Made by a program: the position numbers and the translations under genes. Shown piece after piece: positions 9,957 to 12,970 of a DNA stretch of 25,692 bases; position 1 is the first letter of the stretch, and each line of letters begins with the position of its first letter. The stretch comes from Enterococcus hirae ATCC 9790 (GTDB lineage Bacteria; Bacillota; Bacilli; Lactobacillales; Enterococcaceae): the NCBI RefSeq assembly GCF_000271405.2, contig NC_018081.1:477867-503558 (forward strand). Reading direction: 5' to 3'. Under the pieces are notes generated by a model, which saw nothing but the letters and a program-made list of their open reading frames with translations, had not been told where the DNA came from and made no database searches.

Positions 9957-9990
9957 AACCCCATCTATTGATGGGGTTAGCCTTTTGGGG
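9957..9990 (-). promoter_or_regulatory. Programmed -1 frameshift signal at end of major tail protein gene
   Basis: The zero-frame codons ACC CCA AAA GGC TAA contain the heptamer C CCA AAA (9983-9989). Four bases later begins a perfect 9-bp hairpin (arms 9970-9978 and 9957-9965, AACCCCATC/GATGGGGTT) with an AATA loop. Slippery site, short spacer and stable stem are the standard parts of a -1 frameshift element. There is no U-tract after the stem, so it is not a terminator. The cassette is nearly identical to the one at 12939-12970. Confidence 0.85.
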
Positions 9991-10453
9991 TAGTTTTTGG
10001 TAACGTATCAAAGGTAATTTTGCAACTAAATTCTTCGTATTCCGTTGCATCACCAGCACCTGCGACAATATCCGTTAATGTAGCTCGTCCCACAACTGTG
10101 TCACCGTTAGTTTGGACGACCTTATGCCAAATTTTTCGTTCATCGCCGATTTTATATTTTTTAGATGCTATCAACGCTTGTGCTTTGTCTTCTGGATCAT
10201 AGAACCCTTCCGGACTATACGCTCCTGAAACAGAAGTTACAGTTGTTTCGGGGGTGCCGTCTCCGTCATAAAACCCTGTATCGTCTGTTTCTTCGTCAGT
10301 GTCATCACCAATTGAACTAATAAATTTAGCTAATGGTAACCACTTTTCTCCTTCTTCTGGTGCTGTTTCTTCTCCTGGTGTATACTCCGCAATATAATGT
10401 TCCCTTAATGCATTTTTCTTGCGACCAAAATATTGTAAATTCATTTTAATCAT
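9977..10453 (-). CDS. Major tail (tube) protein
   Basis: A 158-aa protein with the MNLQYFGRKKN-type N-terminus common in enterococcal/lactobacillar major tail proteins, an acidic centre (GDDTDEETDDTGFYDGDGTPE) and a beta-rich C-terminal half (KIWHKVVQTNGDTVVGRATLTDI, EEFSCKITFDTLPK). It lies after the tail-terminator-like gene and before the tail chaperone, the standard place for the tube subunit. AAGGAGG lies 9 bases before the ATG at 10453; the internal ATG four codons later (MNLQYF) is an alternative. The 3' end carries a frameshift signal that would yield a 178-residue minor form. Confidence 0.88.
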   Translation of the reverse strand: MIKMNLQYFGRKKNALREHYIAEYTPGEETAPEEGEKWLPLAKFISSIGDDTDEETDDTGFYDGDGTPETTVTSVSGAYSPEGFYDPEDKAQALIASKKYKIGDERKIWHKVVQTNGDTVVGRATLTDIVAGAGDATEYEEFSCKITFDTLPKTTPKG

Positions 10454-10853
10454 GTTGCTGTTCCTCCTTAAAAGTCGTTAGTTTCACTTGAAAATCCAAT
10501 AAAAAAACGAACCAACCTTGTTCATCCGCTTCATTGATGAATGGTTTGCTCGTTATAGTTAATCGACTGAATTCAAAAGATTCATTCAAGCTATGAATGT
10601 CTTCAATTTGCTCTAAATAGTCTGAAATAAGCCATAATACTTGCTCAATCTTCGAACCGTCTTGTGACTTCATGGCAATTTCATAGTTTAGTTGTTCATC
10701 CTTTATCCCATCGTAGTATTCTTTCAATACCTGACCCCCTGGTAATGGATAAACAACTAAACTTTCATTTCCTGACAGATAGCCTTTTCTTAATGGAATC
10801 GGCAAGTCTGAAATAGTATTGATTTTATCTTTTACTCGATCAATAAAATCCAT
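10446..10853 (-). CDS. Minor capsid protein 3 family (tail terminator-like)
   Basis: A 135-aa protein resembling the Minor_capsid_3 family of A118-like phages. A typical middle region reads SGNESLVVYPLPGGQVLKEYYDG, and the C-terminal half is beta-rich with RLTITSKPFINEADEQGWFVFLLDFQVKL. By synteny it occupies the tail-terminator position (last connector gene before the tube protein), where it would cap the tail tube and join it to the head. The stop overlaps the start of the tail protein gene by 8 bases, and its own start overlaps the previous gene by one base. Molecular role is inferred from position. Confidence 0.8.
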   Translation of the reverse strand: MDFIDRVKDKINTISDLPIPLRKGYLSGNESLVVYPLPGGQVLKEYYDGIKDEQLNYEIAMKSQDGSKIEQVLWLISDYLEQIEDIHSLNESFEFSRLTITSKPFINEADEQGWFVFLLDFQVKLTTFKEEQQHD

Positions 10854-11200
10854 TATTTAATACCTGCTCCTCTCAAAAAAGCTTTCTTCCAATTAGCACC
10901 GTGAATGGAATTTGCTTTTAAGTCCCATCGTTTACCTGTTCCTGGTGTGGAATACTTTCTAAATACTACTTTTCCATTTGTTCCATAATATTGTGCTTTT
11001 GCGTACGGTGTTTGATAAATAATTTTCGAGTGATCGCCGTTAAGATGAGCACTCCCTCTCAATGCGCCTCCCCCAGATCTTTTTGGTACATAGCGATTCA
11101 TATCAGCCATTGCTTGATTACCTAAAGCATATCTCCCGCGCTTCATAGCTTCTGGACTTATTTTTTTTCGAATACCTCCAATATCTACCTTTACTCCCAC
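10853..11200 (-). CDS. Minor capsid protein 2 family (neck / head-tail connector)
   Basis: A 115-aa basic protein resembling Minor_capsid_2 of A118-like phages, an HK97 gp10-like tail-completion protein by position. Visible features are VKVDIGGIRKKISPEAMKRGR at the start, NRYVPKRSGGGALRGSA, the conserved YQTPYAKAQYYG motif, and the WKKAFLRGAG ending. Genes of this type lie between the head-closure and tail-terminator genes and complete the neck. It starts immediately after the previous gene's stop (no gap), indicating coupled translation. Confidence 0.82.
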   Translation of the reverse strand: MGVKVDIGGIRKKISPEAMKRGRYALGNQAMADMNRYVPKRSGGGALRGSAHLNGDHSKIIYQTPYAKAQYYGTNGKVVFRKYSTPGTGKRWDLKANSIHGANWKKAFLRGAGIK

Positions 11201-11542: not shown

Positions 11543-11952
11543 AATTGTACACCTCGATATAAAAGTCCTGTGCTCTCTAAATAAATGTAGACGTCTTCTG
11601 CGACAAGTAATTTATTCCCAGAAGCCCCACTTCCTTTTAAAGAACTACTACGGTTGCCGTTCGTAATGCTTGTTCTACCAGCAGAAAAACTTTGTGGCGT
11701 ATTGTTAATACTTTCGTAAGTATCTCCGCCAACTTCATCGAAATAAATGATTTGAGCACAGAGCGCTAACTTGAATTGGTGAACACGAAAAGCAATTGGA
11801 TCACTTTTTATATCATTGAAACGATAAAAATGGTTGGTTATATTATCTAGAACAGCAGAAGCTTTCGCTAGATTAGAAGCAAAAATCGTTTTGTAATCAT
11901 CCGTTTTTCCTGTTAATTCTTTAAATTCCTCGAATTCGATATAAGCACTCAT
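11536..11952 (-). CDS. Head-tail connector (gp6-like adaptor)
   Basis: A 138-aa, mostly helical protein of the phage head-tail adaptor type (HK97 gp6 / SPP1 gp15 role). It begins IEFEEFKELTGK, continues with a helix bundle (ASAVLDNITNHFYRF, HQFKLALCAQIIYFDEVGG), then a Ser/Gly-rich strand (SFSAGRTSIT) typical of this family and a C-terminal helix (AEDVYIYLESTGLLYRG). It follows the capsid/decoration genes and would dock on the portal as a 12-mer ring. The start overlaps the previous gene's stop (ATGA). Confidence 0.82.
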   Translation of the reverse strand: MSAYIEFEEFKELTGKTDDYKTIFASNLAKASAVLDNITNHFYRFNDIKSDPIAFRVHQFKLALCAQIIYFDEVGGDTYESINNTPQSFSAGRTSITNGNRSSSLKGSGASGNKLLVAEDVYIYLESTGLLYRGVQLC

Positions 11953-12887
11953 ACAGATTCACCTTCTAGCAACTTGATTAGATCACTTTTTCGATCGGTG
12001 GATTTGTAAGAAATCATTCGGTCATCTAATAATGACTTTAATTCAGGAATAGTTTTACTTTTTAAAGAAACGGATGATTTATTCCCGATGATTATTTCTG
12101 GCGCAACTGTATAGCCGCACATCTCATCTTTAGAACCTCGGTACATTTTTACTTGTCGATAACTTATCGTAACTGAAGTAGAATCATTCCCCTTAACACC
12201 TGGGGTCACACTTAAAGAGACGGTATCTTCGGGTAAAATAATCTCTCCCTTTGATATACCTGAACTGCTCGACGCTATTTCATTAGATGGCGCCGTTAAC
12301 CTTCCAGAACTTTTTTGAACTTTTAGCTCTGTAGTTACCGCCATAGAACTATTATTTTGATATTCTGCACTAGCAGAAATTTTATCTCCAGGCTTCAAGT
12401 TCAATTCTTTTAGTGTCCTAGTGAATGCTGTATTAGGTGGTGACCATCCCGAATAGGTAACTTCTTGCCACTCACTGCTATTATTTGGATAATAGTTTCT
12501 TGTATATTCGACAACATTATCTTTTTTAGAGACATCAATTGGCACATCACCTAAGAAATAGACTCTACCTGACGCGTCAATATCAGGCTGTACACGATAA
12601 ATCGTTTCATTTGAATAATCTTGTATTGCTAAATAATCTTCTTGAGAAATATCTAATACATAATAATCACCGGTACGTTCTTCGCCATTAATCATCAAAT
12701 TTCGGCTTTCCTTAATTGGGAGCGTTGTAAAACTAGGGATATTTGTCTTTTCCGTTCCTTCTTTATAAGCGACTTGATAGGTTCCTTCAGGAAAAAAGGT
12801 TGATGGAGCTAATCCATCGATTGTCAGCGGACTAGCTCCTTCTGCAATTTTTTCGTTTCCTTTGTAAATAACAAAAACTTGCGACAT
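11949..12887 (-). CDS. Capsid-associated Ig-like / jelly-roll decoration protein with HeH-like C-terminus
   Basis: A 312-aa protein right after the major capsid gene. Residues 1-60 look like an Ig/FN3-type beta sandwich (VFVIYKGNEKIAEGASPLTI, then EGTYQVAYKEG). Residues about 130-260 resemble carbohydrate-binding jelly-roll domains of phage adhesion proteins (GWSPPNTAF, LNLKPGDKISASAEYQN, ILPEDTVSLSVTPG). The last 38 residues (KTIPELKSLLDDRMISYKST, RKSDLIKLLEG) look like a HeH/LEM or SAP-like helical domain. Small proteins with the N-terminal and HeH-like parts are common here in A118-like phages; the central domain makes this one larger. A role in head decoration or weak attachment to surfaces is inference. 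AGGAGAG precedes the ATG and overlaps the stop of the predicted capsid frameshift product. Confidence 0.7.
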   Translation of the reverse strand: MSQVFVIYKGNEKIAEGASPLTIDGLAPSTFFPEGTYQVAYKEGTEKTNIPSFTTLPIKESRNLMINGEERTGDYYVLDISQEDYLAIQDYSNETIYRVQPDIDASGRVYFLGDVPIDVSKKDNVVEYTRNYYPNNSSEWQEVTYSGWSPPNTAFTRTLKELNLKPGDKISASAEYQNNSSMAVTTELKVQKSSGRLTAPSNEIASSSSGISKGEIILPEDTVSLSVTPGVKGNDSTSVTISYRQVKMYRGSKDEMCGYTVAPEIIIGNKSSVSLKSKTIPELKSLLDDRMISYKSTDRKSDLIKLLEGESV

Positions 12888-12938
12888 TACTATCTCTCCT
12901 AACTAAGTTGAAAAGTGGCGCTCGTTGCCGTCACATCC

Positions 12939-12970
12939 ACCCCATCTATTGATGGGGTTAATCTTTTGGG
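12939..12970 (-). promoter_or_regulatory. Programmed -1 frameshift signal at end of major capsid gene
   Basis: The zero-frame codons GCC CCA AAA GAT TAA contain the -1 slippery heptamer C CCA AAA (12964-12970), then a 5-base spacer, then a perfect 8-bp hairpin ACCCCATC-AATA-GATGGGGT (12939-12958) whose 5' arm begins at the last base of the stop codon. This is the textbook architecture of a -1 ribosomal frameshift element. CCCAAAA-type -1 frameshifting at capsid and tail genes is, to my knowledge, described in Lactobacillus phage A2. No U-tract follows, so a terminator is unlikely. Confidence 0.88.

Follow-up and report, generated by a model that had tools for sequence, protein, structure and literature searches.

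Matched short frameshift tags at the ends of phage head and tail genes, and a neighbouring protein as their putative docking partner

The DNA studied here, called the window throughout, is a stretch of 25,692 nucleotides (nt) of Enterococcus hirae ATCC 9790 (NC_018081.1, positions 477,867 to 503,558), in which the major capsid protein gene and the major tail protein gene of a prophage end in the same kind of short cassette (Table 1). In both genes the heptamer C_CCA_AAA, a slippery sequence of the X_XXY_YYZ type in the zero frame, lies 10 nt ahead of the zero-frame stop, so that this frame terminates one codon past the heptamer, and an 8-base-pair hairpin is placed 5 nt 3' of it. The -1 frame, read from the heptamer's last A, holds 21 codons in each case, and the two peptides, hereafter the head tag and the tail tag, both open with RLTPSIDGV. 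With 21 residues these extensions make no complete Big_2 or fibronectin-III-like (FN3) domain, for which at least 80 residues in the shifted frame were demanded. The first gene past the head tag encodes a protein of 312 amino acids (aa), and it is this third gene, resembling a binding partner of the tag, that is the probable reason for the pairing.

An earlier note on this DNA had described the cassette as shared, about 3 kilobases (kb) apart, by two genes that are not homologous. This description holds: both copies are matched exactly, the repeat spanning them is 33 nt long with 94% identity and a spacing of 2981 nt, and the two proteins fall into separate families, phrog_422 and phrog_820. 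The pattern CCCAAAA-N5-ACCCCATCAATAGATGGGGT occurs exactly twice in the window, both times on the minus strand, where none is expected from 100 shuffles, and the whole genome holds no further copy. The folding z-scores of the two RNAs are -3.0 and -4.3 over 44 nt and -1.9 and -2.7 over 79 nt; among 15 related capsid cassettes, two of the nine predicted pairs are changed on both sides, with a covariation term of only -0.06. Two other readings were rejected, namely that the hairpins are transcription terminators, as the minus strand has no T-run after them, and that the cassette is a host-wide repeat, as the genome has just two copies and, of 395 genomes from the order, 3 contain a looser pattern. 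The cassette is a real and probably functional frameshift-plus-tag unit of a known kind, and frameshifting very probably takes place in the window phage.

Table 1. The two cassettes, their genes and the presumed partner gene, with positions in the window
Feature	Positions	Strand	Basis or remark
Major capsid protein gene, 286 aa, ends ..SYAPKD*	12958..13818	-	phrog_422 major head protein 6e-73
Slippery heptamer CCCAAAA, head copy	12964..12970	-	pattern match
Zero-frame stop TAA, head gene	12958-12960	-	
Hairpin ACCCCATC-AATA-GATGGGGT, head copy	12939..12958	-	pattern match and folding
Head tag, -1 frame, RLTPSIDGVDVTATSATFQLS	12902..12964	-	stop TAG 12899-12901
Presumed partner (decoration) protein, 312 aa, first gene past head tag	11949..12887	-	phrog_37836 7e-194 (unknown function); phrog_341 on residues 1-59; type I partner profile 7e-7
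Presumed tag-binding domain, N-terminal, residues 1-60 of 312-aa protein	12708..12887	-	profile; AlphaFold pLDDT about 58-73
HeH/LEM domain, C-terminal, residues 275-308 of 312-aa protein	11964..12065	-	Pfam HeH 1.6e-6; AlphaFold pLDDT about 80
Major tail protein gene, 158 aa, ends ..KTTPKG*	9977..10453	-	phrog_820 major tail protein 4e-61
Slippery heptamer CCCAAAA, tail copy	9983..9989	-	pattern match
Zero-frame stop TAA, tail gene	9977-9979	-	
Hairpin ACCCCATC-AATA-GATGGGGT, tail copy	9958..9977	-	pattern match and folding
Tail tag, -1 frame, RLTPSIDGVVVGDREVTVHVH	9921..9983	-	stop TAA 9918-9920

Such pairs are not confined to the window. Among its capsid relatives in IMG/VR, 45 of 55 have CCCAAAA ten nt ahead of the zero-frame stop, and in most of these 45 the -1 frame encodes an immunoglobulin-like (Ig-like) Big_2 domain. 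Six relatives (L016, L017, L026, L027, L056 and L058; L numbers denote our loci) have a 24-residue tag instead, and the tail relatives of those six phages bear a similar one (head SVAPKVGKLTPTTSGVVIEMEEGA, tail SITPVIGKMTPTKTGVIIEMEKGE). Three slip-plus-stem scans of viral contigs returned 107, 103 and 82 stretches, and a loose scan of all fetched loci gave 392 sites and 111 pairs lying 1.2-6 kb apart, 61 of them distinct; in 29 distinct pairs both extensions have at most 35 residues, and these make up 13 clusters, two of which share one head tag. The likeness of head and tail tags averages 0.57 within a genome and 0.16 between clusters, a difference that none of 100,000 permutations reaches, and the same permutation gives 2e-5 if only tails of equal slip class are exchanged; the window's own pair scores 0.43 against a maximum of 0.19 with the tail tags of other clusters. 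The slips used include C_CCA_AAA (-1) as well as two that precede a stop, TCAAAA and a +1 slip at CCC. Since most loci were collected by patterns requiring a slip and a C4...G4 stem, the stems and the equal slip class are not independent evidence, while the tag residues are. As to the genes, the representatives outside the window's families are major head proteins in 10 of 10 heads and major tail proteins in 9 of 10 tails, the tenth (L323) being a "protein with Ig domain". Besides the short tags, other cargo was observed at such sites. In L214 (Enterococcus phage EC99P2) a CCC precedes the stop of the head gene as well as that of the tail gene, each ending ..TTP*, and the +1 frames of the two encode similar 88-residue Ig-like domains, so that head-tail matching extends to whole domains. 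A further frameshift cargo, HeH/LEM (SAP-like) domains 50-60 residues long, makes up some of the capsid -1 extensions in L001, L105 (Pfam HeH 5e-11), L110 and relatives, and the presumed partner in the window likewise has an HeH domain at its end.

The earlier note had also claimed that, over the first nine codons of the -1 frame, the copies differ at AGA/AGG, TTA/CTA and GTG/GTT, synonymous there, with an Asp to Gly change in the zero frame, and that this indicates selection on the shifted-frame peptide. Reading both copies confirms the substitutions, the zero-frame change being GAT to GGC. As for selection, the window alone is suggestive, modest and not decisive: three random changes in the first 27 nt keep all nine residues in 1.6% of 20,000 simulations (p 0.016), and over the full 63-nt tags, with 23 differences, 11 of 21 residues agree against 7.7 expected (p 0.041). 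Across phages, selection is supported. In nine pairs, 104 of 178 residues are identical in the shifted frame against 71 expected under random differences (z 7.4), and the other two frames stay at chance level (70 of 169 against 65.6, z 1.0; 62 of 169 against 62.8, z -0.2); the differences at shifted-frame codon positions 1, 2 and 3 number 49, 47 and 90 (chi-square p 7e-5). The simulation omitted clusters 1, 2 and 9, whose tags are unequal in length, and trimmed clusters 5 and 6 to equal length, and the nine-pair frame comparison additionally omitted cluster 3 (L132). Taken singly, the clusters give a strong signal in L249 and L170, a good one in L181 and a weak one in several others. These results bear on a view in which the slip merely tunes translation, moving the ribosome's stop relative to the next start and setting downstream expression, with the peptide incidental. 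It would fit the short distance between the head tag's -1 stop and position 12887, where the 312-aa gene starts; however, the shifted-frame residues are conserved, and several families have one tag with no partner gene after it, which leaves this view very improbable.

That the cassette was duplicated or converted as a mobile unit, as had been proposed, is supported in its first part. The head and tail tags of L132 differ at 1 of 63 nt while its sister phages have another tail tag, which by sequence is recent copying from the head site to the tail site, and one tag is common to two capsid families, phrog_422 and phrog_840, in different phages. As to mobility, no marks of a mobile element turned up, and no search aimed at one was made. 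The same claim had been said to fail if the -1 extension were freely interrupted by stops or if the cassette lay outside structural genes. A looser pattern has 86 distinct matches beyond the window's genome. An open frame of 110 codons or more precedes 65 of them, and just one of these 65 (L074/L109) has a -1 frame that stops early; the remaining 21 come after shorter frames, the gene being identified at part of the matches. All cassette pairs observed sit at the ends of structural genes.

The short tags could also be stumps of lost Ig-like or FN3 domains, whose short open frame persists as the RNA signal overlaps it, the likeness within pairs being that of the shared signal. In fact most relatives of the window capsid have a full Big_2 domain at the same place (L004, Pfam 2.7e-19), and the hairpin's own sequence imposes TPS..DGV on the -1 frame, so that RNA and peptide are inseparable at that stretch. 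Yet conservation continues beyond the stem (IEMEEGA and IEMEKGE) and is restricted to the shifted frame, unrelated slips, both +1 and -1, lead to tags of one type, which may also lie in the zero frame, as in the phiEf11 tail protein, and the short tags accompany a partner gene. We regard the stump explanation as improbable.

This accompanying gene is small and, in nearly all families, stands beside one tag of the pair; it is absent where the extensions are complete Ig or FN3 domains. By their N-terminal starts the presumed partners fall into three types, type I like MADRSKQSLVVYDKSGAKVATGGVGTKQVEITGLEGGKQVAAGDYQLAYTDGANTSDKVDVPAF, type II like MAYTPTVWKDGDTITADKLN followed by collagen-like repeats, and type III like MAKTKEELKTVFVTGAKPTQADFADLIDA. 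By profiles of these types, 82 distinct short extensions were compared with 103 long ones, and a partner lies within 4.5 kb of 67 and 5 of them, respectively (Fisher 3e-29); in the subset with at least 3 kb visible on both sides one is present for 36 of 41 against 2 of 61; extensions of 31-59 residues have one in 7 of 25. As for the five long extensions with a partner, L243 and L250 are fusions of tag and partner, the heads of L243 and L292 have partners that belong to the tails, and L181 has a doubtful frame. The types of tag and partner match as well, 53 short tags standing with type I, 5 with type II, 8 with type III and one (L289) with both I and II, where the readings of types II and III rest on few distinct cases and the first class is coarser, since a regular expression for type I caught just 10 distinct tags and was abandoned, the short tags outside II and III being pooled as "short other".

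One of the two natural fusions, L243, indicates how tag and partner might fit together. In the AlphaFold model of the L243 fusion the tag forms the first two strands of an FN3-like domain, at a predicted local distance difference test (pLDDT) of 95-97, which suggests that the tag strands may complete an FN3-like fold. Moreover, a type I tag profile built from head and tail tags, with four short extensions excluded as unlike the remainder, was run against the 28,720 reading frames of all loci; at E < 0.05 it matched tag sites, 13 partner C-termini and one fusion, and it also matched an internal stretch of one protein in six partner-bearing loci. This stretch, APSGVTADATSDGATIKAT (L115 with L116, L124, L184, L195, L199), is type I tag-like and lies inside another protein, the partner being present and the capsid extension HeH-type. 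Partners with a tag of their own are seen in L277, a tandem pair of partner genes of which the first has a C-terminal tag, and in L289, where a type I partner with a type II-like tag at its end is followed by a type II partner; the type II profile missed this ending, so the assignment of L289 as an adaptor rests on reading. In L463 (reverse complement 4845-5517) a type I partner ends in LPKAKYGSAKYGNAKYN and is followed by a collagen-like gene, which makes it a possible second adaptor.

On these grounds we propose the following mechanism. A fraction of ribosomes would slip -1 on C_CCA_AAA before the hairpin at the ends of the capsid and tail-tube genes, so that a minority of both proteins would bear a nearly identical 21-residue tag. 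The tag would contribute the first two beta strands of an FN3 domain whose remainder is the N-terminus of the separate protein encoded directly past the head tag, and through this complementation one decoration protein could dock on both head and tail, at a copy number set by the slipping efficiency. Since both tags would have to fit one partner, their likeness and the copying of the cassette between unrelated genes would then be explained. For phages in general we think it likely, from sequence patterns and the fusion model, that the tags dock a decoration protein by such split-FN3 complementation; in the window phage the decoration would be displayed on the virion at the stoichiometry just described.

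A fresh trial used the partner to choose the loci. A search of 105 genomes of the host family with the window partner found 13 places outside its own genome, and the six examined were those matching its residues 1-61. All six of these previously unseen loci have tags, at the head gene in L459, L460, L461, L463 and L464 and at the tail gene in L459, L460 (in the zero frame), L462, L463 and L464, with slips including GGGGGAG before a stop and A_AAA_AAA. Of the nine genes profiled there, eight are clearly head or tail proteins, and the L463 tail gene is so only weakly (phrog_476 3.6e-9, its best match having an unknown function); the head and tail genes of L460 were equated with those of phiEf11 by sequence. 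The controls were 21 loci from the same family: 19 places to which the tail protein led, together with the G317 pattern place and the short L407. The partner is present in none of them. A CCCAAAA site is found in 14 of these, with extensions of 55-90 residues in 13 and of 19 residues in one (L432). It might be held that the tags act directly, binding the host surface or mucin or stabilising the shells, and that the adjoining Ig-like gene is an independent adhesin travelling along. In fact Big_2 domains are frequent in the partners, and Ig-like extensions of major capsid and tail proteins are proposed to bind carbohydrates in the available part of PMC8718954. However, this would leave unexplained the match of tag and partner types, the fusions, the C-terminal tags of partners and the six-of-six result, and we give it slightly less credit still than the stump explanation.

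Several observations weigh against docking by split-FN3 complementation. The partner profiles took their seeds from the very loci compared, and the association of tag and partner could partly reflect shared ancestry. Short extensions with at least 3 kb visible on both sides and no recognised partner occur in L078, L187, L265, L275 and L365, and L432 is another short extension without one; the L461 tail protein has no tag, the tags of L146/L161 are dissimilar between head and tail, and the -1 frame of L273 is altered. The L110 group has a partner while its capsid extension is HeH-type, the likely donor there being the internal stretch of another protein. In the window itself the AlphaFold model of the partner is poor (mean pLDDT 51.9), and its tags, scored with a type I profile built without them, are equalled by 7 and 35 of 1000 shuffles; these tags are divergent, and it is by the profile match of its N-terminus that the 312-aa protein is assigned as a type I partner. 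Its C-terminal Pfam HeH match reaches 28.2 bits, slightly below the 28.9 cut-off. A search of 5.8 billion proteins returned two relatives of the window partner and five of the L243 fusion, numbers too small for a deep alignment; P0005, which appeared misaligned, was excluded from the folded alignment. Downstream of the tail genes, the window also holds a 661-aa gene (732-2717, minus strand) whose product has a GDSL lipase/acylhydrolase domain (Pfam 1.2e-17) and may be a tail esterase acting on the cell surface.

More broadly, and with somewhat less confidence than for the docking itself, we favour the idea that phages of Gram-positive bacteria use orthogonal pairs of tag and receptor domain as a virion decoration code. 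Tags would be placed on head and tail subunits, mostly via various frameshifts, and a matching N-terminal domain would recruit the decoration; type I would be the split FN3, and types II and III the bases of collagen-like fibres. Partners with their own C-terminal tag would permit daisy chains, as in the L277 tandem, and adaptors such as L289 and perhaps L463 would switch one tag type to another. Frameshifting in both head and tail genes for a few residues has been without a general explanation, and a docking tag, if real, would account for the short extensions and for why they match within a genome, as well as for many of the small genes next to capsid and tail genes that are labelled "Ig-like" or "hypothetical". 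Decoration proteins would then become predictable from sequence and direct tests feasible, for example of peptide binding or of decoration loss. In pilus donor-strand complementation and in the engineered SpyTag/SpyCatcher pair, a short strand-forming peptide completes the Ig-like fold of another protein. These systems differ in folds and origins, and in the phages frameshifting on the ribosome would attach the peptide to virion proteins; the tags would be a natural counterpart of the engineered pairs.

Among known phages, frameshifting in both head and tail genes is already established for A2 and PSA. In Lactobacillus phage A2, as in the window, CCCAAAAGCGTA ends both the major capsid and the major tail protein gene with -1 extensions, and excerpts of PMC5009743 report two required -1 events, in gp5 (head) and gp10 (tail); unlike the window, A2 has unrelated full Ig-like domains, 87 and 82 aa past the slip, and the DNA similarity stops after CCCCAAAAGCGTA. 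The same excerpts describe frameshifts in both major structural genes (cps and tsh) of Listeria phage PSA, a combination of -1 and +1 in A118 and A500, and the presence of Ig-like extensions in virions. PSA, A118 and A500 thus resemble the window in that both major structural genes are frameshifted, whereas in PSA the slips are +1 and the head extension is HeH-type and dissimilar to the tail extension, hence no matched pair. For BH1, the available part of PMC6950654 describes CCCAAAA in the head gene, mentions that an Ig-like gene lies separately between the head and neck modules, and does not link the two. Closer cases are found in Lactobacillus phage PLE2 (near-identical to iA2; the L104 family), which has matched short head and tail tags and a partner gene after the head tag, the record annotating the frameshift on the tail gene only and calling the partner hypothetical, and in Enterococcus phage phiEf11 (L403). 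The latter has a type I head tag, read in the -1 frame as in the window, after TCAAAAAAATAG and unannotated in the head gene (735-1748); like the window, it further has a matched tag on its tail protein (3243-3836) and a partner as the next gene; unlike the window, its tail tag is in the zero frame, so that every tail subunit would carry it, and its partner is annotated as major tail protein. Nothing like the link between tag and partner turned up in our searches of the open-licence literature in PubMed Central. As far as our searches reach, what is new, as judged from sequences, is the matched tags together with a partner, the short tags, unlike long Ig or FN3 extensions, accompanying a separate small protein, and the three tag types going with three partner types.

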